From a virus: a DNA stretch of 25,711 nt. The stretch lies in the IMG/VR virus record IMGVR_UViG_3300050821_011919, positions 1-25,711 of that record. The stretch is one strand, 5' to 3'. This document shows, piece by piece, positions 804-24,585 of this stretch. Both the position numbers and the translations under genes were made by a program. Under the pieces are notes generated by a model, which saw only the letters and a program-made list of their open reading frames with translations, was not told the DNA's origin and made no database searches. The stretch's first letter is position 1; each line of letters opens with the position of its first letter.

Positions 804-1043
804 ATGGGATTCGGACACGGAATCCAGGCGCGAACAAGCCCAGAAGAGTCCCACGTTTGCATCTTCAACCACGAGCTAGTCGGGGAAGGTGGCATCTTCC
901 GTTTGTTGGGCTCCGGCGGGGTCCGAGTCCGCGTTGACGAAGACTTCGTTCGCATCGGCTGTGTCCGCATGAAGCGGAATACATGGCGCAAACTGGTCGA
1001 GCGTGTGGAAGCCCTGCTCGGCAGCGACAAACTCTCGGCCTAA
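804..1043 (+). CDS. Small conserved-looking hypothetical protein, 79 aa
   Basis: The ATG follows the methyltransferase TAG directly, with a GGAG-type site (gacgaggagcgagg) just upstream. The protein reads as an alternating beta-rich domain (HVCIFNHELVGEGGIFRLL, then VRVRVDEDFVRIGCVRM) ending in an amphipathic helix (WRKLVERVEALLG). No family is recognised. Its TAA overlaps the next ATG in a TAATG junction, the coupling seen elsewhere in this operon, which supports it being real rather than a shadow. Confidence 0.65.
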   Translation: MGFGHGIQARTSPEESHVCIFNHELVGEGGIFRLLGSGGVRVRVDEDFVRIGCVRMKRNTWRKLVERVEALLGSDKLSA

Positions 1044-1726
1044 TGTCTTTCCGTGACCCATCGCAGCGCGAACATATGCGCGCCGGCCACCTGGCCGCAC
1101 TGAGAAGCCCGAACACGCCGAAGCACCTGAAGCCGCACCTCGAACGACTCTCGCAAAGCCCGCAGAAATTCCAAGCCCGGACCAACCAAGGAGCCCAACC
1201 CATGCTACCGCCCAGCCCGCAACGCAGCCGTAAGTTCCGCGCCCCGGTCCCACCGCGCTCGCCCGATGCCAACAATGCTTCTCCGCGCGGCGGCACTGTT
1301 CCGCCGAACCAAGTCTGGAGCCCGGGCACCAACGAATTCGAAAACCCCGGCGACGCGGAGTCCTTCGAGCAGCAGGGCACCGACACCACGCCCATGGGCC
1401 GCAAGGTCAAGACCACGACCGCGCAGCCGAAGCCCGCGGGATCGCGGCCGATGAATGTCACCGCGTCGCGGCCGATGCGCAAAGGACCGGGCATCGTGCA
1501 GACGCAAACGGCGACGGTGCGGCCGCCGAAGGCTCCGGGACTGAATCAGAACTTGCCGCGGGTCGCGCACGCCCAACCAAGCGCCACCGGGCTGAACAAA
1601 ACCCTCAACCCGGTGCGGAAACAGCCGAGCGCCTCCGGCCTTTCGAAGAGCATCTCCGTCGCGAAGACGCGCAACATGCGCGGACCGGGCGCGAACCCGG
1701 CCTTCTACGGCGACTTCGGGATGTAG
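1043..1726 (+). CDS. Low-complexity basic Pro-rich protein ending in an AFYG tag
   Basis: This is a 227-aa, strongly basic protein rich in Pro, Ser, Arg and Lys with little predicted structure. The first 30 residues (MSFRDPSQREHMRAGHLAAL...) may form a helix. The remainder contains loose Pro/Arg/Gly repeats, including ASRPMRKGPG, QPSATGLNKTLNPV and QPSASGLSKSISV; the last two are clearly related units. It ends NPAFYGDFGM, so AFYG lies four residues from the C-terminus, a motif shared with four other small genes here. The ATG at 1043 (TAATG overlap) is chosen over an in-frame opening at 983, which would lie inside the previous gene. Function is unknown; a DNA- or virion-associated disordered protein is a guess. 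Confidence 0.7.
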   Translation: MSFRDPSQREHMRAGHLAALRSPNTPKHLKPHLERLSQSPQKFQARTNQGAQPMLPPSPQRSRKFRAPVPPRSPDANNASPRGGTVPPNQVWSPGTNEFENPGDAESFEQQGTDTTPMGRKVKTTTAQPKPAGSRPMNVTASRPMRKGPGIVQTQTATVRPPKAPGLNQNLPRVAHAQPSATGLNKTLNPVRKQPSASGLSKSISVAKTRNMRGPGANPAFYGDFGM

Positions 1727-1761
1727 TTTTATTCCGACCAACGCAAAGCCGAAGCTCTCTC

Positions 1762-1919
1762 ATGCCGCAGTTCACTTCGAACACCCCGCCAAGGGGAAGG
1801 ATCGCTGCTCGCTCTGCGTACACTTCCTGCCCGGAGAGCGAGGAAGAGGAACTCACTGCCGCATCGTCGCAGAGCCGGTTACTGCTGTTGATTGGTGTGA
1901 ACGATTTAAGGATCGTGGC
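1762..1919 (+). pseudogene. HiPIP-like Cys4 segment with no canonical start in its frame
   Basis: Frame 3 between the neighbouring genes reads VHFEHPAKGKDRCSLC, then VHFLPGE, HCRIVAEPV and AVDWCERF. The cysteines (codons at 1806, 1815, 1857, 1896) are spaced C-x2-C-x13-C-x12-C, and the end closely matches the high-potential iron-sulfur protein signature C-x(6-9)-[LIVM]-x3-G-[YW]-C-x2-[FYW], with Asp in place of Gly. No ATG, GTG or TTG opens this frame. The obvious start, ATG at 1762 behind a pyrimidine tract, is in another frame and would need one extra base within about 15 nt to join. It may therefore be a frameshifted gene, a sequencing error, or a product of ATT (1731) initiation. The frame continues without a stop into the next gene. 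Confidence 0.6.
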
Positions 1920-2135
1920 ATGGCAAAGCTGACCAGCAAACAACGCAACGCGCTCCCGGCGAAGGATTTCGTTTTTCCGAAGTCGCGGAAGTTCCCGATT
2001 GAGGACGCAAATCACGCGCGGGATGCGGAGTCCCGAGCCGCAGCCAAAGGGCCGGGTGTTGAAAAGAAAGTTCGCGCCGCGGTGCACCGGAAGTTTCCGT
2101 CAATTGGGGCGCGGGCGTTTTACGGGGAGACGTAA
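1920..2135 (+). CDS. Small phage protein of the KLT..R.ALP..DF type, AFYG tag
   Basis: A 71-aa basic protein begins MAKLTSKQRNALPAKDF and continues with RKFPIEDANHARDAESR and VRAAVHRKFPSIG. This pattern (ALPxxDF, then FPIxDxxHARxAxxR, then a VRAAVxRKFP helix) is common in small phage proteins and at the ends of some phage head proteins; its function is not established. The start is supported by AAGGA seven bases before the ATG. It ends ARAFYGET, with AFYG two residues from the C-terminus. Its last 16 bases overlap the 3' end of the antisense gene 2120-2392. The frame is open upstream into the HiPIP-like segment, so a fused form is possible. Confidence 0.8.
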   Translation: MAKLTSKQRNALPAKDFVFPKSRKFPIEDANHARDAESRAAAKGPGVEKKVRAAVHRKFPSIGARAFYGET

Positions 2136-2392
2136 GGATGACGGGTGCCCATTGAATCGTATAGCGATTTGTAGCGCTCACCGGTCCGGACGAAGCCGTG
2201 GCCGTCCACGAATACCACACGGTAGACCCAGAAGGGTTCGGGATCAGGCTCCATGTTGAGCCATTCAATGTCAGCAGCTTTGGGCGCGATGATCTCTTTC
2301 GGGAAGCTGTATACGCGGAACGGAAAGGTTCTCACCGCTGCTGATGCCGCAACGCCACCGATAGCGAGCCGTAAGAAACCGCGCCGGTTCAT
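2120..2392 (-). CDS. Small Tat-type signal peptide protein, antisense moron candidate
   Basis: This 90-aa protein starts MNRRGFLRLAIGGVAASAAV, a twin-arginine-type signal (RRGFLR followed by an Ala/Gly/Val-rich hydrophobic stretch). The mature part includes RTFPFRVYSFPKEI and WVYRVVFVDGHGFVRTGERY. I recall similar RTFPFRVYSFP proteins in metagenomic phages, but know no function; export across the inner membrane is the inference. It is the only leftward gene in this part. Its TAA overlaps the + gene ending at 2135 tail to tail. A TATAAT hexamer lies six bases before the ATG, so the transcript may be leaderless. A self-transcribed cargo gene is a reasonable reading. Confidence 0.75.
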   Translation of the reverse strand: MNRRGFLRLAIGGVAASAAVRTFPFRVYSFPKEIIAPKAADIEWLNMEPDPEPFWVYRVVFVDGHGFVRTGERYKSLYDSMGTRHPYVSP

Positions 2393-2398
2393 GGCCGA

Positions 2399-2404
2399 AT
2401 TATA
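2399..2404 (-). promoter_or_regulatory. TATAAT -10 box for the antisense gene 2120-2392
   Basis: Read on the - strand, a perfect TATAAT is followed by TCGGCC and then the ATG at 2392. With the usual 6-7 base spacing, transcription would begin at the start codon itself. No convincing TTGACA-like -35 is seen 16-19 bases further upstream. Confidence 0.5.
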
Positions 2405-2435
2405 GCGCCGGCGTTTTTACGAGGAACCCTGACTC

Positions 2436-3293
2436 ATGCGATTTCACGCACAAAACCTGAACGAAAAGAATGATCGCGTCGTCGGTCCGATGTGGCGGCA
2501 CGGCCGCTGCTGGATCAACGTTCTGCGCTCACAGTGGCGCTTTGAGTGGCTGATCTTCCTGCGGTCGTCGATCGGCATCGTGCTCGACCTGGCTGACTAT
2601 GACGAGGACGCGATCGGCGGCCACGTCGGCATCGGGTTCCTTGCCCTGCATTGGGGCTTTCAGAATCGCAGGCTTCGTCAAGTGATGGAACGGCTGACCT
2701 CGCGGGACAAAGCGCCGCGCGTCCTCGACTGCTGCCAAGTCTGCCGCCATCCTCGATCGGACGGCCGTCACGAACTCCACCCGTTCCAACCGATAACATA
2801 CTGGTCGACCAACGGCCGCAATATCGGACTGCGCTGGTTCGAAGGTTCGCTCTGGGTCGATCTCTGGAACGATCCGATGGAAAGTCGCAGCGTCGATCCG
2901 TGGTGGTGGCATCTCTCGATCTGTCCGATGGATCTGCTGCTGGGTCGCACTCGCTACGAACAAACGGAACTCACGAAAGAGCGCGTCGTCGTTCCCATGC
3001 CCGAGGGCGGCTATCCCGCGACGGTGGAAATTTTCGAAAGCGTCTGGCGCAGGCCTCGCTGGCCCGGAGTCTGGCGGCGGATGATCCGGTCGACAGTCAC
3101 GCCGGACACGCCGATTCCCTTCCCCGGCAAAGGGGAAAGCGAGTACGACTGCGGGGAAGATGCGACTCACTCGATGACTGGCGCATACGACACCGCGCTC
3201 AAAGCAGCGATGGGTCTGAGCGAAAGCGTGATGCGCCGCCGAATCCGGTACGGCGCCGGGTGGAACTATCAGCCCGAAGCTCTGCGTGTCTGA
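2436..3293 (+). CDS. Conserved phage hypothetical protein, 285 aa
   Basis: The sequence is rich in Trp and Arg. An N-terminal part (WRHGRCWINVLRSQWRFEWLIFL, with DLADYDEDAIGGHVGIGFLALHWG) looks beta-rich. Further along come LRWFEGSLWVDLWND, LLLGRTRYEQ, VPMPEGGYPATVEIFESVW, PIPFPGKGESEYDCGEDATHS and a short C-terminal tail. I recognise the set 'lllGrt.y / PMPEG.YPAtv / W.RPRWP / PIPFPGKGE..wDCGeDa' as a family carried by many phages near the terminase or portal; no activity is established for it. The ATG has GAGGA about ten bases upstream and lies 43 bases from the divergent antisense gene. Cytoplasmic, no signal or membrane segment. Confidence 0.8.
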   Translation: MRFHAQNLNEKNDRVVGPMWRHGRCWINVLRSQWRFEWLIFLRSSIGIVLDLADYDEDAIGGHVGIGFLALHWGFQNRRLRQVMERLTSRDKAPRVLDCCQVCRHPRSDGRHELHPFQPITYWSTNGRNIGLRWFEGSLWVDLWNDPMESRSVDPWWWHLSICPMDLLLGRTRYEQTELTKERVVVPMPEGGYPATVEIFESVWRRPRWPGVWRRMIRSTVTPDTPIPFPGKGESEYDCGEDATHSMTGAYDTALKAAMGLSESVMRRRIRYGAGWNYQPEALRV

Positions 3294-3299
3294 ATTTTC

Positions 3300-3497
3300 A
3301 TGCCAGCCGTTTCCCAGAAGCAGCAAATCGCGATGGCCATTGCGGAACACGCGCCCGATAAGCTCTTCGCGCGGAATCGAAGCCTACTCGGCATGAGCCA
3401 TCAGCAGCTTCACGAGTTCGCGTCGACGCCGCGGAAGAATCTGCCGAAGCGCGCACCGAAGGCCAAATCTCGCAACCAAGCGTTCTACGGCGCATGA
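3300..3497 (+). CDS. DUF3008-like small phage protein, AFYG tag
   Basis: The 65-aa protein starts MPAVSQKQQIAMAIAEHAPDKL and has MSHQQLHEFASTPRKNLPKR in the middle. The pairing of an N-terminal MPAxSxxQQ helix with a later L-x-x-F-A-S-T-x-x-x-x-L-P motif matches DUF3008-type small proteins, whose role is unknown. It ends KSRNQAFYGA, putting AFYG one residue from the C-terminus. The ATG lies behind ATTTTC rather than a Shine-Dalgarno site, six bases after the previous stop. The ATG of the next gene overlaps its TGA (ATGA at 3494-3497). Confidence 0.8.
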   Translation: MPAVSQKQQIAMAIAEHAPDKLFARNRSLLGMSHQQLHEFASTPRKNLPKRAPKAKSRNQAFYGA

Positions 3498-3721
3498 GCG
3501 TTCTCCGCCCTCTCGGCTTCTCGAATCCCGGTATGCCCGCGGTGGGCGTCGCGCTCGAAGTCGATTGCCCCGTGTGCCAAGTTCCGGCCGGAGCGAAATG
3601 CGCCGTCAGTAACGGCGAGCGTATTGTTTTGCGCCCGCCCCACGTCGAGCGCGGCCGCAACGCCCGCTGGTCCTCTATGTTCCCCAGCGAGACGATGTAC
3701 CCGAGCGAGAAGACCCTGTGA
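3494..3721 (+). CDS. Phage zinc-finger protein (CPxC...H type)
   Basis: This 75-aa protein has VDCPVCQVPAGAKCAVSNG followed by PPHVERGRNARW. The arrangement CPxC-x6-C ... H-x2-R is the small phage zinc-finger domain often annotated as DNA-binding. The ligands would be Cys-Cys-Cys-His, giving one zinc knuckle; the remainder is short and polar. It is translationally coupled on both sides (ATGA with the upstream gene, GTGA with the terminase gene). Its position directly before the terminase nuclease suggests, but does not show, a role in packaging or in recognising DNA. Confidence 0.75.
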   Translation: MSVLRPLGFSNPGMPAVGVALEVDCPVCQVPAGAKCAVSNGERIVLRPPHVERGRNARWSSMFPSETMYPSEKTL

Positions 3722-4776
3722 ATCCGGCCAATACCAGCTTCCCGCACCCCGGCATCCAGGTGCACAAAAACCAGCACGGCATCACGTGCATGCGCCTGCA
3801 CTACGACGCCGACCCCAATAAGGGCAAAGGGAAAAAGACCTTCGTTCCGGCCATCAACATGGAACTCTCGCCCTGGGCCCTGAAGCAGTACGAGCAGATG
3901 ACCGACCCCACGCTCTACCTGCGCGAGTACGAAATTCAGGCGGAGGCCACGCTCGGCTCGCTGATCTACCAGATGGACGACGAAGCCACGCTCGAAAAAA
4001 GCTTCCCGATCCCACCGACCTGGACCCGGCGCATGTCGCTCGATCCTCATCCCAGCGTGCCACATGCGTTTCTTTGGTGCGCGACCGACCCCTGGGGCGA
4101 TCGCTGGTACTACCGCGAGCTGTGGCCCTCGAAAGTTTGCTTCCGCTATGACGGCCTGCGACTGCTCGGGGCAAGCGGGCCGTGCCCTCCGGACGATCCC
4201 GTGGTGCGCATCAAGGATTATGTCGAAACCGTGAAGTGGCTGGAGTCTTCGGAGAATCCGGAGAACGTCGACGCCAAGGCCAACCGCTTCGACGAAACAA
4301 TCTTCGCCCGCGTCATCGACTACACCGCGCGCGCCTTCGGCAAAGGCACCAACGACGATCCCGAGCAGCCGAACTTTCAAACCCGCTACGAGCAGTACAT
4401 GAGCCTGCCCGACACACGGCTCTCCTGCCCGCTGTTCCAGGATGCGAAAAAAGACCACGACGTGGGCTTCGAGATGGTCAACGCCGGGCTGAAGCCGCGG
4501 CGGACGGTCGGTTCCGACGACAAGCCGCGGAAACGCTCGGCGATTCACATCTTCGCCGACAAGTGCCCCGAATTGATCTGGCAGATTCGGAATCTGCGCC
4601 GCGCCCGCCTCACGCCGGCGCAAGCGACGCAGAAAGACCCCAGCGGCAAAGCGGTCCAGGTCCGCGCCCACCAGTGCGACAACCTGCGCTACATCGAGAT
4701 GTCGAACCCGATCTACATCGCGCCCTCGAAGCCGTGGCCGAAGCAGAGCCGGCTGGCGGAAGGGTTCAGCTACTAG
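3718..4776 (+). CDS. terL (C-terminal domain): Terminase large subunit, nuclease domain only
   Basis: The 352-aa product corresponds to the part of a large terminase after the ATPase. It opens with the linker typical of TerL (ITCMRLHYDADPNKGKG, then LYLREYEIQAEATLGSLIYQ) and continues into an RNase H-like nuclease: LWCATDPWGDRWYYRELW (Asp about 124), RVIDYTARAFG (Asp about 201), SAIHIFADKCPELIWQIRNL and HQCDNLRYIEM (Asp about 321, the usual third acidic position). There is no Walker A, Walker B or coupling motif, and complete TerL proteins are usually 450-650 aa. The GTG start overlaps the zinc-finger stop, so the gene is genuinely short here. The ATPase half must lie outside this window or be supplied separately. 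Function: cutting the DNA concatemer during packaging. Confidence 0.8.
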   Translation: MNPANTSFPHPGIQVHKNQHGITCMRLHYDADPNKGKGKKTFVPAINMELSPWALKQYEQMTDPTLYLREYEIQAEATLGSLIYQMDDEATLEKSFPIPPTWTRRMSLDPHPSVPHAFLWCATDPWGDRWYYRELWPSKVCFRYDGLRLLGASGPCPPDDPVVRIKDYVETVKWLESSENPENVDAKANRFDETIFARVIDYTARAFGKGTNDDPEQPNFQTRYEQYMSLPDTRLSCPLFQDAKKDHDVGFEMVNAGLKPRRTVGSDDKPRKRSAIHIFADKCPELIWQIRNLRRARLTPAQATQKDPSGKAVQVRAHQCDNLRYIEMSNPIYIAPSKPWPKQSRLAEGFSY

Positions 4777-4779
4777 GAC

Positions 4780-4983
4780 GTGGGGATAATCCAACGACAT
4801 TTCGGCGATCTGGTTTTCGTGGTGTCGGTCTCGGAAGCGCCACGCAGGTCGCGGAAACATCCGAACGACGTTCTCTCGCGTTCGTGGTCTGGGGTTCGAC
4901 TCTCGGCCCATTGCGCGAAGGACAAGCACTGGCAATGCACAGCGAAGCGTTGCGTCTGCCCGTGCCACAAAAGCGGCCATTGA
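4780..4983 (+). CDS. Small Cys/His-rich protein (CVCPCH tail)
   Basis: The predicted protein is 67 aa from a GTG three bases after the terminase stop. The C-terminal third, HCAKDKHWQCTAKRCVCPCH, has five Cys and three His in about 20 residues and is a plausible zinc site. The first half is featureless and basic. The next gene starts five bases after its stop, as expected in a packed operon. No Shine-Dalgarno is obvious and competing antisense frames exist, so confidence is moderate. Confidence 0.5.
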   Translation: MGIIQRHFGDLVFVVSVSEAPRRSRKHPNDVLSRSWSGVRLSAHCAKDKHWQCTAKRCVCPCHKSGH

Positions 4984-4988
4984 TAGAT

Positions 4989-5156: not shown

Positions 5157-5169
5157 ATTCTTAAATCGC

Positions 5170-5304: not shown

Positions 5305-5310
5305 CTTCTC

Positions 5311-7554
5311 ATGGCCACACCAACAGGCAGCTCCGGCGTCGTCTCCGACATCATCCAGCGTCGCGACGAGTCCAAAAAATGGCTCCGCTACAACTACTGG
5401 GATGAGTGGGTCGAGACCTGGCGCATGATCAAGTGCCGGACCAAACCCCTGCGCAAAACCGATTCCGCCGGCAAAGAGACCAACGAGGAAGACAAATCCC
5501 GCACCAACGTCGAATCCGGTCTCGCCAATCTGATCTACCGCAAGAACGTCGCCCGCCTGAGCGCCCAGCCCTACACTCTCCGCGTGCGCGGCGGCAACGA
5601 TCCCTCTGCAGCTCCACGCTTGAGCTCCCTTCTCTCCCATCAATACGACCGCTCCCAGGAACGAACTGAAGACGTCCGCGTGCGCATGGCCGCGGAGTCG
5701 CTCGGCATCGGCATCTCGAAGCTGTACTGGGATTTCATCTCGCGCACGATGGTGTTCCGCCAGGCGATTTTGAAAGAGGGCAAGATCGTCAATCGCGACC
5801 GCGCCGCCATGATGCGCTTCCGCCAGGCGCCCGACGCCGAGATTCAGCAGGCGGTCGAAGAGTACGGCGCGAACATGACCGACGACGAAGTGAATGAGTT
5901 CATGGCGAAGTCCGGCGCCGAGATCACCGTCCCGCAAGTCGTCGACAAATACGAAGGCCCGCGGCTGAAGTGCTGCTTCCCCGGCGACGTGTACTGGGAG
6001 CCGTTCGCGCGCACCCTGCGCCAGTCGAGCTTTGTGACCGAGTGCTATCGCGAGTCCGACCTGTGGCTCAAGAAAATGCTGGGCGTGAAGTACAAGGACC
6101 CGGAGACCGGGCAGCAGACGCCGGCGTTTGATCCCGACGCCGTAGCCGGCCTGGTGCGGCTCGATCCGGAGCCGGTCGTGGTCAAAGGCGAGTTCCAGGA
6201 GCTGAAGGATTTGTTCCGCACCGCGGTGGGCAAGCAGGACCAGGTGCAGTATCAGTTCCCGCGCAACCTGCGCGTCCGCAAGATGTACGACATCCTCGAA
6301 GAGCACAAGCAGGATGACGACGGGCGGATGTGGATCACCTGGGTTTCGGAGAACTATCGCGACAAGGTTCTGGGCAAGATGCCCTACCCGTTCAACTTCT
6401 ACGGCGATACGGCCTTCACCGACGAAGTGCCGCTGCCCGATCTGATCGACGCGATCGGCGACTCGACGCCGCGCCTGCTGCGCTTCATGTTCATGCTGTT
6501 CAACCTGCAGCATTGCCAGAATTTTGATTACGTCACCAACCTGATCCGCGTGACCTATCTCGCACCCGCGGGACTCGACTTCGATACCGACATGCTGGAG
6601 CGCGGCATCTTCCGCCTAGTGCGCGTCTCGGGCGGCAATCCCGCATCGCTGCAGCCCGTTCCCACGCCGCCGCTGCCTCCCGGAGCGATGGAGCGCGGCG
6701 CCTCGATCATGCAGCTGATCGGCATGTTTGAACCCTCGTTGCAGACCACCACGGACGGAACCACCTACAGCCCGCAGTCTTCAAAGACCGCCACCACCGC
6801 GGTGTTGAACGCGAAAGCCGCCGACGTGCTGCTCGCCTTCAAGATGGAATCGCGCAACTTCTATCTCTACCAGCTGGGCATGAAGAAAATCTGGATGAAC
6901 CAGCAGATGGCGGACATGGACAAGAGCTGGGAAATCCCGTCGAAGTTCTTCGGCTCGCAGATGCGCGATTACTTCCAGTCGAAGGGAATCGATCCCAACA
7001 AGTTCCTGGAACAACAGCAGCAACAGGCGGCACAGATTCCCTGGATCATCACCGATCAGTCGGGCGTGATCTCGACCGTGAAGCTCGATCCCATGGAAAT
7101 TCAGGAAGACTTCGAGGTCGAACCGGAGTCCGGCTCCTATATGGCCGTGGACGACGATCTGCGCCGGCAGGCCGCGGTCGAACTGGACCAGGTCGCGATG
7201 CAGGCTCCGGACGTGCTCGATCGGCGCAAAGTCGTGACCAATCACCTGAAGACCATCAAGGGCATCGACAATCCGGAAGACTTCCTCGCCCCGGTGAAAA
7301 CGACTCCACCACCTCCGCCGGTGAAAGTGAACGTCAGCCTTACCGGAAAGATCGAGGACGTGCCGGGCGCCATGAACGCGCTGCTGCAGGAGCTGGGCCT
7401 GCCGCCCTCGCCCGATCTTGACGAGATGCAGCAGACCAACACGCTGAAGCGCATCAGTGAATCCGCGGATCACGCGAGCAACCTGCTATCGACGGGGCAG
7501 GAAGACGAAGAGGGCAGCACGCCGGAGCACGAAGCGGAGACGGTGACGGCGTGA
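5311..7554 (+). CDS. Portal protein, podovirus/P22 size class
   Basis: At 747 aa this is close in length to the P22 portal (725 aa). Position (after the terminase nuclease, before scaffold and capsid) and general features support the call: an N-terminal helical part beginning SDIIQRRDESKKWLRYNYWD, a conserved-looking core (TNVESGLANLIYRKNVARL, PGDVYWEPFARTL), the segment PYPFNFYGDTAFTDEVPLPDL, a long helical region with SSKTATTAVLNAKAADVLLAF, and a Gln-rich helix (FLEQQQQQAAQ). The last 100 residues are Pro/Glu-rich and probably flexible. Twelve copies would form the vertex ring through which DNA enters and leaves. The start ATG follows CTTCTC, not a Shine-Dalgarno. The stop overlaps the next GTG. 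Confidence 0.87.
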   Translation: MATPTGSSGVVSDIIQRRDESKKWLRYNYWDEWVETWRMIKCRTKPLRKTDSAGKETNEEDKSRTNVESGLANLIYRKNVARLSAQPYTLRVRGGNDPSAAPRLSSLLSHQYDRSQERTEDVRVRMAAESLGIGISKLYWDFISRTMVFRQAILKEGKIVNRDRAAMMRFRQAPDAEIQQAVEEYGANMTDDEVNEFMAKSGAEITVPQVVDKYEGPRLKCCFPGDVYWEPFARTLRQSSFVTECYRESDLWLKKMLGVKYKDPETGQQTPAFDPDAVAGLVRLDPEPVVVKGEFQELKDLFRTAVGKQDQVQYQFPRNLRVRKMYDILEEHKQDDDGRMWITWVSENYRDKVLGKMPYPFNFYGDTAFTDEVPLPDLIDAIGDSTPRLLRFMFMLFNLQHCQNFDYVTNLIRVTYLAPAGLDFDTDMLERGIFRLVRVSGGNPASLQPVPTPPLPPGAMERGASIMQLIGMFEPSLQTTTDGTTYSPQSSKTATTAVLNAKAADVLLAFKMESRNFYLYQLGMKKIWMNQQMADMDKSWEIPSKFFGSQMRDYFQSKGIDPNKFLEQQQQQAAQIPWIITDQSGVISTVKLDPMEIQEDFEVEPESGSYMAVDDDLRRQAAVELDQVAMQAPDVLDRRKVVTNHLKTIKGIDNPEDFLAPVKTTPPPPPVKVNVSLTGKIEDVPGAMNALLQELGLPPSPDLDEMQQTNTLKRISESADHASNLLSTGQEDEEGSTPEHEAETVTA

Positions 7555-8725: not shown

Positions 8726-10033
8726 ATGACGCCTGTTGAAACCGCACCGGTAACCACCCCGGAAAGCGCGCCGGCAACCACTCCGGCCGCCGACGGCTTC
8801 AGTAGCTTTTTGGGAGTCGAAGCTGAGACTCTGCCCTCGCTCCAGCCGCGCGAAACCCCGGCACCTGGCGGCGCTGAACCCGAAGGCTCGCAAGAGTCCA
8901 CGGAAGAAGCAGGAGCGGGCGAAGAACAAGCTGAACTTCCCGAAGAGACCATAGACGGCGAACCCGCAACTGAACTCGAACCCCAAGGCGAGGAAACGGA
9001 CGACAACTGGCTCCCCACCGAGCAGGCGAAGGAGTTTCCCCTTGAGGTTCTGCAGCAGTACGCGGAAAAGCGCGGCTATGACTGGGCAAAGATTTCCGCC
9101 GATCCCACACTTCAGCGCCTGCTGAAGGACAAACTCAACACCGACATCTACGTCGAGCAGATGCGGCAGGAGACCGAGAATCAGGGCTTCGAGGAAACCA
9201 CGCCCGAAGAGACTGAGCTACCGGCCGATCCCGCAGCAGCTGCCGATCCGCGCGCCGAGTATCGCCAGCGGGTCGAGACCATCGCCCAGAAAATTGACCC
9301 CGCGGCCACCGAAGCGCTGGGCAAGGAGCTGCTCGCTGCTTTTGGCGTCACCACCGACGTCAAGAAGCTGGAGCAGATGCTCGCCGATCCCAAGTTGACG
9401 CCCGAGGCCCGGCAGGAAGTCCAGTCTGCCATCGCCTTGTCGCGCAACGCGGGAGTGGTGGGCACGACCCTCGCCAAAGGCGCGATCGACCTGATCCTGA
9501 CTTCCCTTCCCGAAATTCTTCCCGCGGTCATGGAGTCGGTTGCTCCCGGACTGCTCGGAGCCTACCAGGGATGGAGCCAGGTGCAGGCCGCCAGCGGCGC
9601 CTGGAACGAAGTCAGCCAGGCACGCGACGGCCGCGGTCAGCCCGTGTATTCCAACCTTCCGCAGTATGGGACGAAGGAATTTGCGCAGCTGACGGTGCGG
9701 GCGGAGCAGCAGTTGGGTCTGGCCAAGGGCGCACTCGGCGAGATGGCGGGACGGGGATTCATCCGCGAGGCCTACACCATGGTGGCGCAGGTCGCCAGCG
9801 GTCAGAGAGTCTCCCCGCAAGCGGTGTCAAGAGCGGTGAGTGTGGGACGGCAGCAGGAACGCAATCAGCAGGAGCGCCGCGCTACCGGGCGCGCACTGGG
9901 AGCCGGGCAACAGAGCCGACAGTTTGGACAGGAAGAACCGGCGGATGCGGTTCGCGACGAATTGCGCAGGGCGATCGCGGAGCAGAACTCCACCTCGACC
10001 CCCTTCGCGGGCGCAAGAACCGTAGGGTCGTAA
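8726..10033 (+). CDS. Probable capsid scaffolding protein
   Basis: The 435-aa protein directly precedes the major capsid gene, the standard place for scaffold. Residues 1-100 are acidic and Pro/Thr/Glu-rich (EEAGAGEEQAELPEE and similar). A helical part follows (KEFPLEVLQQYAEKRGYDWA, VETIAQKIDPAATEALGKEL). A more hydrophobic segment comes at about 250-290 (TTLAKGAIDLILTSLPEILP), and the last 90 residues are Gln/Arg-rich and helical. Scaffold proteins are typically acidic, helical and poorly conserved, with a basic C-terminal capsid-binding end, and this fits. AGGAG stands eight bases before the ATG. No protease motif is seen. Confidence 0.72.
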   Translation: MTPVETAPVTTPESAPATTPAADGFSSFLGVEAETLPSLQPRETPAPGGAEPEGSQESTEEAGAGEEQAELPEETIDGEPATELEPQGEETDDNWLPTEQAKEFPLEVLQQYAEKRGYDWAKISADPTLQRLLKDKLNTDIYVEQMRQETENQGFEETTPEETELPADPAAAADPRAEYRQRVETIAQKIDPAATEALGKELLAAFGVTTDVKKLEQMLADPKLTPEARQEVQSAIALSRNAGVVGTTLAKGAIDLILTSLPEILPAVMESVAPGLLGAYQGWSQVQAASGAWNEVSQARDGRGQPVYSNLPQYGTKEFAQLTVRAEQQLGLAKGALGEMAGRGFIREAYTMVAQVASGQRVSPQAVSRAVSVGRQQERNQQERRATGRALGAGQQSRQFGQEEPADAVRDELRRAIAEQNSTSTPFAGARTVGS

Positions 10034-10098: not shown

Positions 10099-11343
10099 TT
10101 GGCTGAGCAAAATATCCGCACCTTTCAGGACTATCAGACCGAAGGCACGCTGGTTCGCGACGTAGCGATCGACATGCTGCTGCTCGAACCCGACCGCACC
10201 CCGCTGTACGTCCTCACCAACAATTCGAAGCGCAAAAAGACCGTCTACAACCCGATCTTCGAATGGCCCGAAGACCAGGATCTCCCGATGCTGGGCACGG
10301 TCTCAAACGGCACGACCAACCTCAGTTCGGTTGCCACCAACATTCCCGTCGTCGATGTCACCATCTTCGGCGTGAACGATATGGTGCAGATCCCGACCGG
10401 TGGCGACATCGGAACCGGTATCGAGGAAGTGGCGCTGATCACCGCCGTCACCATCGGAACCGGCACCCCGTCGACCACCGCGTATCAGATCGGCGCCGTC
10501 GCCGGCACGATCACGGTCACCCGCGGCTTTGCCGGAACCACCCCGGGCACGGTCGGTGCGACCCAGTCGCTGCGCATCATCGCCACGGCCGCAACCGAAG
10601 GCGGAGCGATCCAGACGCCGCGTTCGCCCTATGTGACGCTGAAAACTTCGGCGGCTCAGATCTTCGAGCAGCCGGTGCAGATCACCCGCATGGGCGCGTC
10701 CACCCGGACCTACTACGACCGCAACGAGCGAGCCCGACTGCAAATGCTCGCCATGCGCCGGGCGAAGCTCGAAATCGAGGACGCCGGCATCTTCGGCGTG
10801 TACTCGCAGACGGTCAACGGGACTTCCACCCGCCTGACCTCGATGGGCGTGCGCTCGATCATCTCGCCGTTTGTCACCGACATGGGCGGGACGGTCACCT
10901 ATCAGTCCTTCCTGCAGGCGAATGAATTCACCTTCCGTTACGGTTCGCCGCAGAAATTGCTGATCGCCTCGCCGCTGGTCAAGACCGCGCTCGACTACTA
11001 CGCGGCCAACAAGCAGCTGGTGAAACCGGACATCGATCTGTTCGGCGTGAGCCTGAAGAAGTTCGTGACCTCGAACGGTACGTTCCTGATCGCCAACAAC
11101 TTCAACATGGGCGATTTCAACGCTTCGACCAACTACAGCTACGAAGCGCTGGCGATCGACCTGCCGTCGATCGAGTTCTGCCCGCTGTCCGACAACGGGA
11201 TCTCAAACGACACCCAGCTGATCACCAACTACGACACGACCAATCCGAAGCTGATCAAGGATCTGGTCTACACCCAGGCGGGATGGAGAGTCCGGCATCC
11301 GGCAAGGCACGCAAGATTTACTAACTGGACGGCGTTCCAATAG
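10099..11343 (+). CDS. Major capsid protein (SU10/HK97-fold type)
   Basis: This 414-aa protein starts at TTG (10099) behind AAAAGGAA. The beginning (RTFQDYQTEGTLVRDVAIDM, then TPLYVLTNNSKRKKT and FEWPEDQDLP) matches the N-terminal pattern of the SU10-type capsid family: TPL..ll....k......EW.eD. A Gly/Thr-rich insertion with FAGTTPGTVGATQ follows, then FEQPVQITRMGASTRTYYDR, RRAKLEIEDAGIFGVYSQ, the P-domain-like SPQKLLIASPLVKTALDYY, and a C-terminal TNYDTTNPKLIKDLVYTQ. Hundreds of copies would form the head. Scaffold lies upstream and two strong hairpins lie downstream, consistent with a highly expressed transcript end. Confidence 0.85.
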   Translation: MAEQNIRTFQDYQTEGTLVRDVAIDMLLLEPDRTPLYVLTNNSKRKKTVYNPIFEWPEDQDLPMLGTVSNGTTNLSSVATNIPVVDVTIFGVNDMVQIPTGGDIGTGIEEVALITAVTIGTGTPSTTAYQIGAVAGTITVTRGFAGTTPGTVGATQSLRIIATAATEGGAIQTPRSPYVTLKTSAAQIFEQPVQITRMGASTRTYYDRNERARLQMLAMRRAKLEIEDAGIFGVYSQTVNGTSTRLTSMGVRSIISPFVTDMGGTVTYQSFLQANEFTFRYGSPQKLLIASPLVKTALDYYAANKQLVKPDIDLFGVSLKKFVTSNGTFLIANNFNMGDFNASTNYSYEALAIDLPSIEFCPLSDNGISNDTQLITNYDTTNPKLIKDLVYTQAGWRVRHPARHARFTNWTAFQ

Positions 11344-17711: not shown

Positions 17712-18752
17712 ATGAGCAGCGACGAAGACCAACTCAACGAATTACTGGCGAAGGAACCGGAGCCGCGCAAACCGCGGCGGGGCGACGAGCCGAACAAAGA
17801 GGACGTAGTACAGCCGTCGACGCCGACCGCGAGCATGGCGCAAGGTGTGGACTATTGCCAGTGGAGCTCCGGACCAAATGACACGTTTCGTCCGAGCGGT
17901 CCGCGGCGGGAAAAACTGCCGAGCGGCATCTACACCGTCGACAGCGATCAGATGGGACCCTACTTCATTCGCACCAAGGTCGTCACGGATAACCTCATCG
18001 AACTGGACGATGCGGCAACGGCGCGCGTGCTCTCTTCGCTGCGAAAGTTCTGGAAGTCGCGCGCGCAGTATCAAAAGCGCGGCGTGCTCTACAAGCGCGG
18101 CCTTCTGCTCTGGGGCCCGGCGGGAAGCGGCAAGACGGCGACTCTCGGCCTTTTGATGGCGGAACTGCTGCGCATGGATGGGCTGGTTTTTATCTGCCAG
18201 AATCCGGCGCTGCTGAGCACAATGCTTTCAGTCCTTCGGCGCATCGAGCCCGAGCGAAATCTGATCGTGGTCCTCGAAGACATCGACGAGCTGGTCCAGC
18301 GCTTCGGCGAACATGATCTGCTGGCGCTGCTCGACGGCGAAACCCAGATCGACAATGTCGTGAACATCGCGACGACAAATTATCCGGAACGGCTGGGCGC
18401 GCGCATCGTGAACCGTCCCAGTCGCTTCGACGAGCGCATCCTGGTCGGGATGCCAAACCCTCCAGCGCGCGAGAAATATCTGCGCCACATCACGCGGCAC
18501 GAGAACATGCCGGATAAGATGCTCGCCCACTGGGTCAAGAAAACCGATGGCTTCAGCGTGGCCCACTTGCGCGAACTCGTGATCGCAGTGTTCTGCCTCG
18601 ATCAATCGTTCGAGGAAGTGCTGGAACGGCTCTCGAAGATGCAGTTTCAGCCGCGGCCGCTGAAAGAGTTTCTGCGCCCCGCACCTCCCGGATTCGCACC
18701 GCAGAATGAAGGCGGCGCTTTAACAGGAGCCGGCACAAGCGCCAGTCGATAA
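17712..18752 (+). CDS. AAA+ ATPase of BCS1-like type
   Basis: The first 60 residues of this 346-aa protein are charged and probably disordered. The AAA core then shows Walker A GPAGSGKT (135-142), Walker B VVLEDIDEL (about 187-194), sensor 1 NIATTNYPERL, an arginine-finger region VNRPSRFDERI and sensor 2-like GFSVAHLREL. The LEDID form of Walker B, rather than DEID, is characteristic of the BCS1 branch. The last 35 residues are Pro/Gly-rich. No protease, nuclease or membrane segment is attached, so it should be a remodelling or unfolding ATPase, probably hexameric. It sits between tail genes, an unusual place; roles in assembling or loading internal proteins, or in countering a host system, are only ideas. 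No Shine-Dalgarno before the ATG. Confidence 0.85.
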   Translation: MSSDEDQLNELLAKEPEPRKPRRGDEPNKEDVVQPSTPTASMAQGVDYCQWSSGPNDTFRPSGPRREKLPSGIYTVDSDQMGPYFIRTKVVTDNLIELDDAATARVLSSLRKFWKSRAQYQKRGVLYKRGLLLWGPAGSGKTATLGLLMAELLRMDGLVFICQNPALLSTMLSVLRRIEPERNLIVVLEDIDELVQRFGEHDLLALLDGETQIDNVVNIATTNYPERLGARIVNRPSRFDERILVGMPNPPAREKYLRHITRHENMPDKMLAHWVKKTDGFSVAHLRELVIAVFCLDQSFEEVLERLSKMQFQPRPLKEFLRPAPPGFAPQNEGGALTGAGTSASR

Positions 18753-18755
18753 GTC

Positions 18756-19253: not shown

Positions 19254-19261
19254 CCCTCTTC

Positions 19262-19764: not shown

Positions 19765-19796
19765 ATCAGGTTCGATAAACAAACGGGGAAACCACG

Positions 19797-20342
19797 ATGG
19801 GCGGCGGACCGAGCTCCACTCAAAAAGCAGCGCAGCAGCAGCAGCTCTCGAACGCGCAACAGGAAGGCCAGCTCGCCGGACAAAGCGGGCAGGAGTTCCA
19901 GTCCCTCTACGGCCAGACCTCGCCGTTCTACACCGGGGAGATGACCAACGGACTTCCCTTCTACAACAACCTGACCGACTTCGCTTCGGGAACCACGGCG
20001 CAAGCCTACGCGCCGGCGAAAGCCGCGTATCTGCGCAACGAGTCGACGATGGGCGCGCTGCCCTCCGGTTCGAAGGCCGCGGGCATGAACGACATCAACG
20101 AAGCGGAAGCGAAGAATTTCGACTCCACGTTGACCGGCAACATGTTCGCGCAGCAGCAGGCGAAGCAGCAGGGAGCCGCGGGACTCTCCGGGCTGATGCA
20201 GACGGTCAATCCGGCCGCGTTCTACGGCGGATCGAGTTCGGCCGCGCAGGGAGCGACGCAACCGCTGCAGGCGCAGCAGAATCCCTGGATGGGCATTCTG
20301 GGCGGCGCGATCTCGGGAGCGGCCAAGGCAATTCCGTTCTAG
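19797..20342 (+). CDS. Putative internal virion/ejection protein 1 (MGG family)
   Basis: The 181-aa protein begins MGGGPSSTQKAAQQQQLSNA and is Gln/Ala/Gly-rich and helical. It contains TSPFYTGEMTNGLPFYNNLT, AYAPAKAAYLRNESTMGALP, QQQAKQQGAAGLSGLMQTV and a Gly/Ala tail. I recognise the pattern 'MGGGP.stQ.aa......Q' with 'GLPFYn.LtD' from uncharacterised phage proteins downstream of tail genes. Composition and place suggest ejection (P22 gp7-like) proteins, but this is inference. The AFYG peptide occurs here internally (residues 141-144, NPAAFYGGSS). GGGGAA precedes the ATG. Confidence 0.65.
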   Translation: MGGGPSSTQKAAQQQQLSNAQQEGQLAGQSGQEFQSLYGQTSPFYTGEMTNGLPFYNNLTDFASGTTAQAYAPAKAAYLRNESTMGALPSGSKAAGMNDINEAEAKNFDSTLTGNMFAQQQAKQQGAAGLSGLMQTVNPAAFYGGSSSAAQGATQPLQAQQNPWMGILGGAISGAAKAIPF

Positions 20343-20391
20343 CAGTTTGGTCAAATCAATTTTCGGAAGAGCAGTTTCGGAGAACACAGTC

Positions 20392-20664
20392 ATGGGCGGA
20401 TCACTGGGCGGGGCTTTCAGCGGGCAGGGACAGGGCGCAAACGGCGGGGGAAGTTTCCTGCAGAACCTGATTCAGGGCACAACCAAAGGCGCGCTCACGG
20501 CCGCGGGCAACGGCTTGCAGAAACAGCCCACGCCACCGAACGGTGGTACGCCTCCCTCTCCGGCTCCCACTCCGGTCGATCCGCGGTTCTTTCAGCCCAC
20601 GGCGGCCCCGGCTCCTGCAGGCGGCGGGTACGGCGGTTCGCCCTCGTCCGCGTTCTACGGCTAG
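20392..20664 (+). CDS. Gly/Pro-rich small protein ending exactly in SAFYG
   Basis: Starts at ATG 20392 (MGGSLGGAFSGQGQGANGG) with GGAGA upstream; a TTG at 20347 is in frame but less likely. A short helix (SFLQNLIQGTTKGALTAAG) is followed by a Pro-rich linker (PPNGGTPPSPAPTPVDPRFF) and a Gly/Ala/Pro tail ending SPSSAFYG, the last residue being the Gly of the shared tag. 90 aa. It resembles 24298-24585 in composition and tail. A virion-associated small protein is the inference; no homology recognised. Confidence 0.65.
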   Translation: MGGSLGGAFSGQGQGANGGGSFLQNLIQGTTKGALTAAGNGLQKQPTPPNGGTPPSPAPTPVDPRFFQPTAAPAPAGGGYGGSPSSAFYG

Positions 20665-20705
20665 CTTTCTGATCGCGTAATTCCTTCGTCGCTTCAAAGA
20701 CTCTT

Positions 20706-22562
20706 ATGGGCGGACTCTCACTCACTAATCCCGGCCTCGCCTTTCCTGACGGCTCGATCGATCCCACTACCGGGCAACCGATCGTCAAGCCGCGGGTGCA
20801 GTTTTTCCCGAACAATGCCGCGCGCGCCCTTGCCTTCGCGAAGCAGCAGAATGCCGCGGTGCAGCCGTCGACCTCGGACGTCTCCGGAGGAATCGCCGCG
20901 CCGGGTGAGACGCCGAACAATGTGCCGTCGGTGGTCGCGCCGCCGTCTTCCCCCGTTCCGAGTTTCTTCAAACCAAGCTTCAGCTCGACGACCACTGATC
21001 CAACAACTGGGATGCAGGCTCCAGTCAACGCTGCACAGACCAAACTCGGCAAGCTAGTTTCGATTCTCGGGGCGGCCGCGCGGGGTGCAATCGCAGGATA
21101 TGGCTACGGCAACGCAGCGCAGGGAGCCGCGGCCGCGCGCGAAGTTCCCTTTCAAGAGGCAGAGCAACGCGCACAGCTGCAGCAGCAAGGGGCGCAGACG
21201 GCTCTCACCCGGGAACAGGCTTCGATGGTGCCGACGCCAATGGGTCCGATGCCGCTGGGAATGGCGCGATACATATTCCCGTCCCTGATCAACGCAGGCG
21301 CGAAAGTACAAAGTGCGAACATCGGGGCGCAGAGCCGACAGGCGGTGGCGCAAACCAACAAGCGATTCTTGACGGTGCCCAACGTGGGAGTCTACGACAC
21401 GCAAACTCTGGACCCGAGCGGCCGTCCCTCGCTGATTCCGGGTAGTGCACAAGGAATCACCATTACTCCCGATTTCGCGCAGGAACACGGATTGGGTGAT
21501 CAATGGGTCGGTAAGAACGTAAAGCTCTCTGACCTTGTGGCGATGGAAAACGTGGAATCGAAGTACGCGCCCACAACGACGAGCGAATCCTCTTCGACGG
21601 ATTTGATGGGGAACACCAGCACGAAGCGAACCCAGCAGAAAGTTGCTCCGGGCGGAGCTGCCCCGGCGACATTCGTGCAGCGCACCGCGGGCGGACCGCT
21701 GCTGCAGCAGGGCGGAACGCCCCAAACGCCGAACGCCCAGCCCCGCGCGACTTCTGCGACGGGTGTGATTCCGAAGGCAGCAGCATCCAGCTCCACGCCT
21801 ACACCGGTTCCGTCCGAGCTGCAGCTTGCTCCGGATGCGGAGCAACGTCTCGCGAATTCCGGACTAAACGCGCAAACGCAGTCTTATGTGCGCGGACTCT
21901 TGAACTACCGCGGACAGATGCCCTCGCCGCGCGCGAAGAATTATGCCGCCACGCTCGCAACGTTGACCTCGATCGATCCTAGCTTCGATGCGCCGAATTA
22001 CGACGCGCGCCGCAAGGTCGCGATGGACTATTCCGCGGGCGGTTCGGTCGGAAAACAAGCGATGTCGTTCAACACCGCGATCGCTCATCTGGGAATGCTG
22101 CAGGACGCGGCCGACGCGCTGAAGAACCAGCAAGTCCCGATCCTCAATCGCATCGCGAACTTCTTCAAGGTCCAGACGGGCGGCTCGGCCGTCACAACTT
22201 TCAACAACATCGCGGACGCCGTCGACGGTGAAGTCTCGAAGACGTTCAAAGGCACGGCCACCGAAGGCGAACTCGCGCGCGTAGGTGCACACTTCAATTC
22301 CGCGCTGGGCGCAGATCAGATTCAAAACAACATCAAATCGACCGTGGGACTGCTCAGCGGGAAAATGGGCGAGATGGAATCGGCGTATCAGCAGCCGCCT
22401 CCGGTTGGAATGGGAAAACCGATCAGCCTCGTCAGTCCGCAGGCGAAGCAAACGCTGCAGAAGCTCGCCGGATCGGGCGGCGGAAACGCTGGCGCGGTCC
22501 GCACCTATCAGGGTCATCAGTACGCGCAGCAGTCGGACGGAAGCTGGAAGCTGCAGCAATAA
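20706..22562 (+). CDS. Putative internal virion/ejection protein 2, 618 aa
   Basis: The protein opens MGGLSLTNPGLAFPDGSIDP. The first 100 residues are Pro/Ser-rich, with an Ala/Gly-rich helical stretch at 115-150 (VSILGAAARGAIAGYGYGNA) that could insert in a membrane. A low-complexity Thr/Ser/Pro section occupies the middle. Residues 395-565 are an ordered helical domain: YVRGLLNYRGQMPSPRAKNY, MSFNTAIAHLGMLQDAADAL, NFFKVQTGGSAVTTFNNIAD, VDGEVSKTFKGTATEGELAR and LLSGKMGEMESAY. I recognise that domain as recurrent in large uncharacterised phage virion proteins, often near lytic transglycosylases. The end (TYQGHQYAQQSDGSWKL) resembles a small beta hook. No catalytic motif is visible. Confidence 0.7.
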   Translation: MGGLSLTNPGLAFPDGSIDPTTGQPIVKPRVQFFPNNAARALAFAKQQNAAVQPSTSDVSGGIAAPGETPNNVPSVVAPPSSPVPSFFKPSFSSTTTDPTTGMQAPVNAAQTKLGKLVSILGAAARGAIAGYGYGNAAQGAAAAREVPFQEAEQRAQLQQQGAQTALTREQASMVPTPMGPMPLGMARYIFPSLINAGAKVQSANIGAQSRQAVAQTNKRFLTVPNVGVYDTQTLDPSGRPSLIPGSAQGITITPDFAQEHGLGDQWVGKNVKLSDLVAMENVESKYAPTTTSESSSTDLMGNTSTKRTQQKVAPGGAAPATFVQRTAGGPLLQQGGTPQTPNAQPRATSATGVIPKAAASSSTPTPVPSELQLAPDAEQRLANSGLNAQTQSYVRGLLNYRGQMPSPRAKNYAATLATLTSIDPSFDAPNYDARRKVAMDYSAGGSVGKQAMSFNTAIAHLGMLQDAADALKNQQVPILNRIANFFKVQTGGSAVTTFNNIADAVDGEVSKTFKGTATEGELARVGAHFNSALGADQIQNNIKSTVGLLSGKMGEMESAYQQPPPVGMGKPISLVSPQAKQTLQKLAGSGGGNAGAVRTYQGHQYAQQSDGSWKLQQ

Positions 22563-22565
22563 TTC

Positions 22566-24080
22566 ATGGGCGCTCCGCAAACACTACCGGCGAACTTTCA
22601 GGGCTGGGATAAACCGCCCGCGACGCTCCCTGCGGATTTCAAGGGCTGGGATTCGCCGCCCGCTGCAGCGAAGCCCACCGTCCTGAGCAATCTCGGCCTC
22701 ACCGAAGGACCGGACGTACAGATCACCGATTATCCGCACGCGACTCTTTCCGGCATTCAATCGATCGGCCGCGGCGTGCGCGGAGCCGTCAAAGGCGTCG
22801 GTCATCTGATCGCGCATCCGATCGACACCGCGAAGAGCCTGGCCGAACTTCCTTCCCAAGCTGCGCAGGTCCCGGCCGCAATCAGCGACATCAACGCCTC
22901 GCCCGATCCCGTGGGCACTTACGCAAAAGCCGCGCAGGAAACCGCCGGGCAAGGCGCAGGACAGGCTCTCGTCGCGCTGGGAACCGAAGGTCTCGCAAAA
23001 GCAGCTCCGGCGGTGACGAACGCAACCGGACCGGTGATCGGGAGAGTCGTGCGGGCCTCTGCGCGCGCGGCGAACAAAGCCCTGGAGAAAGCTCCCGCCA
23101 CGGTCGGAACTACGGTGGGCGGCGCGCTGGGCGCCGCCTCGCGCATTCCTTACGGCACGGAAGCCGGAGCCGCACTCGGTTCGATCATCGGCAAAGAATT
23201 GCTACCGAAAGTCCGCGTTCCCGGTGAAGGTTTCGGACTGCCCGACAGTGTGACTGGCGGACCCGCATCAGCTCCGCCCTACACTCCACCTGCGCCCGAA
23301 CCACCCGCGGTGAACCCCGGCGCGCCGATGCCCGAAGCGCCCGATCCCGCGCTCCTGCAGGCGAACTCCCTTCTGCGCGGACCGCAACCGGTGAGCAATC
23401 CAGCCGATGCGCTCGAAAGCCTCCCGGTTAAACGCGCCGCAACTGCTGCACCGTCGAACGTCCGCATTCCCGGCCAGATCGCCCCGGAGATGATCCGTCC
23501 TCGTGCTTTCACCGCGCGCACCGCCGAACCAATCCCGCCGCGCTCCGGACTCGCACTTCCTCCCGCTTCCGTTCCGGGCAGCCAGATTCCGATCCGCGGC
23601 TTCCGTCCGCTCAACCCGATTCCGGAAACGCCACCAACGGCTCCGGCAGCACCAGCAGCACCCGCGCCGAATCTCCTGCTCGAAGAACCTCGCCCGGCAT
23701 TTGATGCTCCGGTGAAAGCTCCCAAGGGACGCTCTGATCTTCTCGATGATCAAGCGATTCAGGAAGACATGCGCAACTACCTCGACCGGCAGCAGCGCGC
23801 GATCGACATGGACGCTTCCCGGAGATGGTGGGCCGCGAACGGACCGCAGACCACAAAAGGGGCGCTGATCGAACAGGCGGGCGGAAAACTTCCAAGCACT
23901 CAGACGGCCGCGGCGGCGACAACGCCAGCTCCGAAAGCCGCCGCGGCGAAACCTGCTACTGCACCGAATTCGAGCTTGCCGGAAACTGCAGCAACAGACG
24001 ATCTGACAGGGATTCTGAAGAAGTCTCTGGCCGCGGTGAAACGGGCGAAGGCGCAGGCGGCGAAGCGAGTTTCGAATTGA
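22566..24080 (+). CDS. Putative internal virion/ejection protein 3, 504 aa
   Basis: The N-terminus holds two copies of a 15-16 residue unit, LPANFQGWDKPPAT and LPADFKGWDSPPAA. Then comes a helical Gly/Ala region with amphipathic parts (IGRGVRGAVKGVGHLIAHPI, KSLAELPSQAAQV, VGGALGAASRIPYGTEAGAAL, GSIIGKELLP). A 200-residue Pro/Ala-rich section, a short ordered segment (LLDDQAIQEDMRNYLDRQQR) and a basic C-terminus (KKSLAAVKRAKAQAAKRVSN) follow. The G.W.xP repeats, amphipathic glycine-zipper-like helices and basic tail fit proteins expelled into the cell envelope with the DNA. The ATG lies four bases after the previous stop with no clear ribosome site. Confidence 0.65.
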   Translation: MGAPQTLPANFQGWDKPPATLPADFKGWDSPPAAAKPTVLSNLGLTEGPDVQITDYPHATLSGIQSIGRGVRGAVKGVGHLIAHPIDTAKSLAELPSQAAQVPAAISDINASPDPVGTYAKAAQETAGQGAGQALVALGTEGLAKAAPAVTNATGPVIGRVVRASARAANKALEKAPATVGTTVGGALGAASRIPYGTEAGAALGSIIGKELLPKVRVPGEGFGLPDSVTGGPASAPPYTPPAPEPPAVNPGAPMPEAPDPALLQANSLLRGPQPVSNPADALESLPVKRAATAAPSNVRIPGQIAPEMIRPRAFTARTAEPIPPRSGLALPPASVPGSQIPIRGFRPLNPIPETPPTAPAAPAAPAPNLLLEEPRPAFDAPVKAPKGRSDLLDDQAIQEDMRNYLDRQQRAIDMDASRRWWAANGPQTTKGALIEQAGGKLPSTQTAAAATTPAPKAAAAKPATAPNSSLPETAATDDLTGILKKSLAAVKRAKAQAAKRVSN

Positions 24081-24118
24081 AGATTCCGTTCCAGGGTTCG
24101 TAGATCGATGGGTCTTTC

Positions 24119-24199
24119 ATGCAACAAGTTCTCCTTCCGGGTTTCGGATTGAAAGTATGCACCCGCAAAAGCAGTTTGCCAATAGCACCGAGTAGCTAA
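24119..24199 (+). CDS. Possible micro-ORF, 26 aa
   Basis: In the gap 24081-24206 one short frame, MQQVLLPGFGLKVCTRKSSL plus six residues, opens behind TCTTTC at an ATG, as several genes here do. Nothing else supports it; apart from it I see nothing in this gap. Confidence 0.2.
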   Translation: MQQVLLPGFGLKVCTRKSSLPIAPSS

Positions 24200-24206
24200 T
24201 CACTCC

Positions 24207-24296
24207 ATGAAACTCCGTTTCTCTTCCCCGCTGATTTCCGGGCTGACCTTTGCCTTGATGCTCGTGCTCTGCGCAGTCTTTGCAGGAGGAAATTAA
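24207..24296 (+). CDS. Tiny single-span membrane peptide, 29 aa
   Basis: ATG at 24207 gives MKLRFSSPLISGLTFALMLV, then LCAVFAGGN and TAA. Positively charged start, a 17-20 residue hydrophobic run and a small polar end form a type I or signal-anchor pattern, too short for a complete secreted protein. The last codons (GCA GGA GGA AAT TAA) contain the AGGAGG used by the next gene, which suggests coupling. The role could be a small membrane or lysis-accessory peptide, or only a leader that brings ribosomes. Confidence 0.45.
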   Translation: MKLRFSSPLISGLTFALMLVLCAVFAGGN

Positions 24297-24297
24297 C

Positions 24298-24585
24298 ATC
24301 GGAGGAACCTTAGGTCCGAAGTCGTTTCCCTGGCCGTCAACGATCGGCGGATCGCAGGCTGCTTCCCCGCTGACTCAGTCCATGGCGCCGGGCCAGGTCG
24401 GCGGAACTTCCGCGTCTTCGAGTGCAGCTCCAACATCGACCCTGCAGCCGCGCGCGAGCATGCCGCAAGCTCCGCCCCAGGCGCCGCTCGCTCCGATCGC
24501 CGGACCGACCGCGCCGAATCTGCCCATCCGGAGCCCGCTTGCGGGCCTTGGCGTTCCACGCTCGTCTTCGGCCTTCTACGGATAA
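24298..24585 (+). CDS. Pro/Ala/Ser-rich small protein ending in SAFYG; apparent ATC start
   Basis: A perfect AGGAGG (24284-24289) is followed by eight bases and ATC GGA GGA, which would read MGG if the third base were G, the same beginning as three neighbours. The only usual start in frame, TTG at 24280, lies upstream of the ribosome site and gives a different N-terminus. The protein (95 aa) contains TLGPKSFPWPSTIGGSQAAS, an Ala/Pro-rich middle (MPQAPPQAPLAPIAGPTAP) and ends VPRSSSAFYG, the shared tag at the very end. An ATC (AUC) start, or a single-base change of ATG, is the likely explanation. Confidence 0.6.
   Translation: MGGTLGPKSFPWPSTIGGSQAASPLTQSMAPGQVGGTSASSSAAPTSTLQPRASMPQAPPQAPLAPIAGPTAPNLPIRSPLAGLGVPRSSSAFYG

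Follow-up and report, generated by a model that had tools for sequence, protein, structure and literature searches.

Unrelated small late proteins of uncultured short-tailed phages share a C-terminal Phe-Tyr-Gly peptide

Why should five small proteins of one phage, with little else in common, end in the same four residues? The question is raised by the 25,711-nucleotide window analysed here, which spans positions 1 to 25,711 of the IMG/VR record IMGVR_UViG_3300050821_011919. The initial annotation had placed an Ala-Phe-Tyr-Gly (AFYG) sequence at the C-termini of five otherwise unrelated gene products, and each was confirmed at its position (Table 1). In the gene set produced by our home-made caller, AFYG lies in the last 14 residues of 5 proteins of the window, compared with 0.003 expected (binomial p = 1.6e-15). 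The gene order is of the short-tailed phage type. The portal gave no match among cultured phages and no relative in bacterial genomes, and all relatives found are environmental contigs in IMG/VR, that is, metagenomic fragments.

Table 1 Tagged genes and head, packaging and putative ejection genes of the window, with the position of AFYG
Feature	Coordinates	Strand	Basis of assignment	C-terminal end	AFYG codons	Residues between AFYG and stop
Pro/Arg-rich basic protein, N-terminal HLRxHL-type segment	1043..1726	+		ANPAFYGDFGM	1700-1711	4
DUF6582-like small basic protein	1920..2135	+	phrog_16160, 4e-16	ARAFYGET	2115-2126	2
DUF3008-like small basic protein	3300..3497	+	weak match, below Pfam cut-off	NQAFYGA	3480-3491	1
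Large terminase, C-terminal half	3718..4776	+	phrog_2 TerL positions 430-508, weak			
Portal, clade marker, candidate tag receptor	5311..7554	+	SU10_portal PF23899, E 0.006, below cut-off			
Putative scaffold, candidate tag receptor	8726..10033	+	position; no family match			
Major capsid protein, SU10_MCP family, candidate tag receptor	10099..11343	+	PF17236, 4e-25, above cut-off			
MGG1, putative internal (ejection) virion protein	19797..20342	+	function by position only			
MGG2, small Gly/Pro-rich protein of the putative ejection operon	20392..20664	+		SSAFYG	20650-20661	0
MGG3, small Gly/Pro-rich protein, last in the putative ejection operon	24280..24585	+		SSSAFYG	24571-24582	0

A sixth AFYG, internal to MGG1 (20217-20228), had been counted as a further copy. 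It is truly present, but the segment that holds it reads NPTAYSG in more distant relatives; it is therefore the protein's own sequence and not a C-terminal tag, and we reject it as a sixth copy. As to the start of MGG3, the best ribosome-binding site (window 24284-24300) is directly 5' of an ATC at 24298. A homologue has its ATG aligned with this codon, and a non-canonical start at the ATC or a sequence error is possible.

The preference of the triplet FYG for C-termini is strong within the clade of relatives and flat elsewhere. In the clade, with genes taken from the home-made caller, 32 of 56 FYG triplets fall in the last 12 residues compared with 2.8 expected (p = 3e-27), a pooled value that, like the others of its kind, is optimistic because homologues share descent across genomes, the meaningful independence being that between families. 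Among 3559 proteins of other phage loci there is no enrichment (4 C-terminal FYG, 3.1 expected), and five permuted triplets show no C-terminal enrichment. The excesses in window and clade rule out chance or composition. At the DNA level, the 27 AFYG ends compared are encoded by about 20 different 12-mers. This free variation of synonymous codons argues that selection acts on the peptide; neither recent DNA copying nor a DNA element explains the repeat, and a promoter or ribosome site read as protein is excluded. Given the flat controls and the free codons, the probability that the tag is a coincidence, a matter of composition or a misread DNA element is negligible. Conservation, enrichment and codon variation together establish the proposed tag on unrelated proteins as real and under selection at the protein level.

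How far the tag extends was seen in the relatives. The sequence [A]-F-Y-G-[E/D], followed by 0-7 residues, ends 64 proteins of 24 genomes, which fall into about 14 families as assigned by simple sequence patterns, so that some families may be distantly related to one another; DUF6582, DUF3008 and DUF6496 are among them. Counted over 66 proteins, the glycine is present in 66, the tyrosine in 62, the phenylalanine in 59 and the preceding alanine in 45; Glu or Asp follows the glycine in 42, usually as a single residue before the stop. The wider consensus is [N/G/S/K]-[S/P/A]-A-F-Y-G-[E/D]-end. The initial annotation held that homologues lacking the tag would speak against it; within the clade the homologues keep it. 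Close relatives retain it on the homologues of the window's tagged proteins and bear it on further families as well (DUF6496, KSQAQ type, HPGF...NPRLNKV type and IKPS type), and in distant relatives, with 34-46% portal identity, it is retained on yet more families. The Pro/Arg-rich protein has homologues in 10 more genomes of the tagged set, with [A/N/G/K]F[YF]G at their ends. The DUF6582-like protein has tagged homologues in G006, G009 and L307, and its homologues beyond the clade have ends that differ from the tag; the DUF3008-like protein has a tagged homologue in G001. For MGG3 the homologous ends are NAFYGA (G001), PVFYG (G004) and NPFMYGAQ (G006). Outside the clade, proteins of the DUF6496, DUF6582 and HPGF families have other ends. 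The tagged proteins are mostly basic: their median pI is 10.5, compared with 6.3 when untagged proteins of 35-250 aa are taken. Their families are patchily present across the relatives; the head genes are universal. Almost no matches to the small tagged families were found in cultured phages, and the open-access literature yielded no mention of the AFYG tag or of the DUF family names, although such mention may exist elsewhere. One tag context was also sought as a DNA pattern, which was too strict and gave no match.

Within a genome the tags change together. Three families all end in LYGD in L303/L307, and two families both end in RTKFYGG in L306/L315. In the portal tree the LYGD lineage branches within the FYG clade, where the RTKFYGG lineage also lies. 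Similarity of tag plus flanks between different families of the same genome is 22.97, compared with 20.51 (sd 0.55, p = 0.0005) when tags are shuffled between genomes within each family, a permutation that preserves the families. The difference persists without the two most divergent genomes (p = 0.006) and falls to p = 0.07 for the F-Y-G core alone, which places the concerted signal mostly in the flanks. From this concerted variation we infer one partner per phage, a single receptor common to its tags.

Two late loci hold the tagged genes, the terminase cassette and the putative ejection operon. Early genes of long contigs carry almost no tags, and the tags off these loci (on an HNH-type gene of G004 and a single ORF of G028) occur at about the chance rate. 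The cassette immediately precedes the gene that encodes the C-terminal half of the terminase. The homologue of this gene at L300:6479-7420 matches TerL 423-596, and ORFs of about 230-250 aa further upstream in the relatives match the ATPase part (phrog_2 218-396), in both cases with weak scores. By these matches the large terminase appears to be split into an ATPase and a nuclease gene with the tagged cassette between them; besides that homologue, apparent halves were seen in the clade at L007:12296-13060, L300:2512-3261 and L306:1524-2222. No first half was seen in the window, and it is probably located before the window's start. In the cassette region of two relatives there are ORFs that by eye resemble LAGLIDADG-type homing endonucleases (L304:3667-4140 and L310:5178-5603). 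The second locus, an operon, follows the putative nozzle; its MGG genes are, by position, putative ejection genes. MGG1 is found in all 10 long relatives, and the gene beside it ends in F[YF]G in 9 of the 11 genomes examined. Relatives with the tag on this gene are G001, G004, G016, G025, G026, G027, G029 and G030; the MGG2 homologue of G006 has lost the tag. AlphaFold models of MGG1 (pLDDT 44.5) and of the putative tail nozzle (pLDDT 42.1) were of low confidence and too poor for a structure search.

A short C-terminal peptide with many clients could be a degradation or stability signal that tunes the turnover of small late proteins. ClpXP and Tsp recognise nonpolar AA-type C-terminal tails, whereas the tag ends in Gly or Gly-Glu/Asp; moreover, it varies in concert between related phages and is nearly absent from early proteins. 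A role in degradation is unlikely, and we would give this explanation a very slight chance.

All ten long relatives encode the portal, scaffold, capsid protein, terminase, an adaptor-like and a nozzle-like protein, MGG1 and a 618-aa protein, and the receptor would be sought among the portal, scaffold, major capsid protein, terminase and other genes universal in the tagged relatives. Scaffold, capsid protein and AAA+ ATPase had been named earlier as candidate partners. The first two are encoded in all ten relatives and, with the portal, are possible partners; the ATPase finds no support. This protein (window 17712-18752) resembles FtsH and proteasome-activating nucleotidases. Homologues of it could be detected in none of the ten long tag-bearing relatives, and because of this absence we reject it as the receptor; its gene is perhaps a recent insertion.

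Our preferred model, to which we give about an even chance, takes FYG as a short linear motif at the C-terminus through which accessory late proteins dock on one conserved head component and so come to be loaded into the particle. The carriers would be a variable assortment of late accessory proteins, most of them small and basic; the peptide would attach them to that component while the head assembles; and the docked proteins would be loaded into the particle and exit together with the DNA when the next cell is infected. Newcomer small proteins in the terminase cassette appear to gain the local tag. Loading into the virion is suggested by the late-gene location, the small basic proteins and the neighbours in the ejection operon. 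The virion-packaging or capsid-targeting role is consistent with the late genes, the mostly small and basic accessory proteins, the ejection neighbours and the concerted variation.

The halves of the large terminase flank one of the two tagged loci. Together with the mostly basic nature of the tagged proteins and the presence of terminase, portal and scaffold among the universally conserved genes, this would suit a tag whose partner is the portal or the split terminase, its carriers acting while the DNA is packaged (as DNA-handling factors, for example) and not being carried in the finished virion. However, the putative ejection operon, where the other tagged genes lie, is distant from the packaging genes, and the clade terminases bear a different conserved C-terminus, GFSY or WKPxxxGxxY. 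This packaging-vertex role is in our judgement unlikely. With these ends, the terminase tail finds no support as the tag's source in this clade.

Other phage lineages seem to tag small proteins likewise with different peptides. For about a quarter of the distinct DUF6496/DUF6582 ends from about 235 loci, fetched with tag-free cores, the end of a neighbouring gene is closer than at least 98% of foreign ends, where 2% is expected; this quarter includes a few members of the AFYG clade. Clear cases in pairs of small proteins, with different codons, are GALRRA, KKGF[RK]I, KLSxLAR and GMKEY, and further clear cases are GKLYxR, GSM[IV]S, GVLT, GLMxGK and EAAEY. Some of the pairs obtained are simply Lys/Arg-rich and may be compositional. 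In one phage TRIPGTY ends both a 582-aa protein (L195:10510-12258) and a 118-aa protein (L195:14516-14872). The sequence RRIK, with mixed Arg codons, is near the end of 15 proteins of a 63-kb contig, compared with 0.009 expected (L279-L282, contig of L049), and of 11 proteins of a related phage (L283-L285, contig of L046), many more proteins than end in AFYG. Its carriers include the terminase, a DNA-polymerase-like protein in the first phage and a DUF6496 protein in the second. The RRIK on the two terminases had suggested the terminase-tail source mentioned above; the RRIK ends may be a separate phenomenon. We propose with some doubt, as somewhat short of an even chance, that many lineages have a head component able to recognise a C-terminal tag of their own, and that small basic proteins (DUF6496, DUF6582, DUF3008 and others) form a common pool which passes from phage to phage by exchange of tails, FYG[ED] here and peptides such as GALRRA or GMKEY elsewhere.

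RRIK on a polymerase-like protein and a terminase is unlike a pure virion-cargo label. Replication-like and packaging proteins that bear the same end are what a hub ligand would give, and the tag could accordingly bind a phage chaperone or a host protein that gathers small late proteins in the cell without packaging them. A host partner fits poorly, however, with tags that co-vary within a phage lineage (LYGD, KFYGG), and the genes universal in the tagged relatives, among the window genes compared, are head and tail genes. Such a hub seems to us rather improbable. For docking on a head component we count the tag on 64 proteins and its retention down to 35% portal identity, the enrichment, the codon variation, the concerted variation, the two late loci, the tagged gene beside MGG1, the high pI, the universal head genes and the separate tags of other lineages; against it we count RRIK in the other lineage, the untagged MGG2 of G006 and the fact that no prohead protease gene was noticed close to the scaffold.

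These uncultured short-tailed phages place one end peptide on many unrelated small late proteins, which is most simply read as an address label for the new virus particle, and related phages appear to do likewise with other peptides. Environmental phages commonly encode small DUF proteins, to which no function has yet been assigned. Should the tag serve as a loading signal, it would mark the accessory proteins that a phage carries and open a route to their function; it would also provide a short C-terminal handle to put chosen proteins into phage heads. Were tag and receptor to fit as key and lock, the tag would tell which accessory proteins ride in the particle, and the same families with different tails in each lineage would let the rules of cargo selection be read from sequence.

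Comparison with known systems places the tag among short terminal peptides. Host C-terminal degrons (ssrA and the substrates of ClpXP and Tsp) are likewise short and C-terminal; the FYG tag differs from them in sequence class, in its phage-lineage specificity and in its restriction to late proteins. In SU10, five ejection proteins reside in the head (PMC9509320). The likeness to SU10 and T7-like ejection proteins lies in the two tagged proteins of the probable ejection operon and in the SU10-type capsid protein. We know of no report of ejection proteins that share an end peptide with unrelated small proteins. Encapsulin cargo is recognised by C-terminal peptides behind Ala/Pro/Gly-rich linkers (PMC8229669), and encapsulin shells and phage capsids have the HK97 fold in common (PMC8229669, PMC8346489). 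The FYG tag is also short and C-terminal, and by inspection Pro/Gly/Lys-rich stretches, which may act as linkers, precede it. In contrast, the encapsulin consensus is SDGSLGIGSLKRS and that of the tag xxAFYG[ED], and encapsulin cargoes are enzymes in a cellular compartment. The GALRR end of another lineage superficially resembles the GSLKR part of the encapsulin consensus. The internal proteins IPI-IPIII of T4 carry an N-terminal capsid targeting sequence (CTS) that is cleaved (PMC9026906), and DarB of P1 bears an analogous signal (PMC9024508). The CTS is N-terminal, about 10 residues long and removed by the prohead protease; FYG is at the extreme C-terminus, all its copies being 0-7 residues from the end. 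Because terminus or consensus differs, we have filed FYG under neither the T4 CTS nor the encapsulin peptides. These two are its nearest precedents, and in outline it would work as they do. The CTS is one short terminal peptide on different small basic proteins, which are themselves poorly conserved between phages; the FYG clade too has one short peptide on several small basic proteins per phage.
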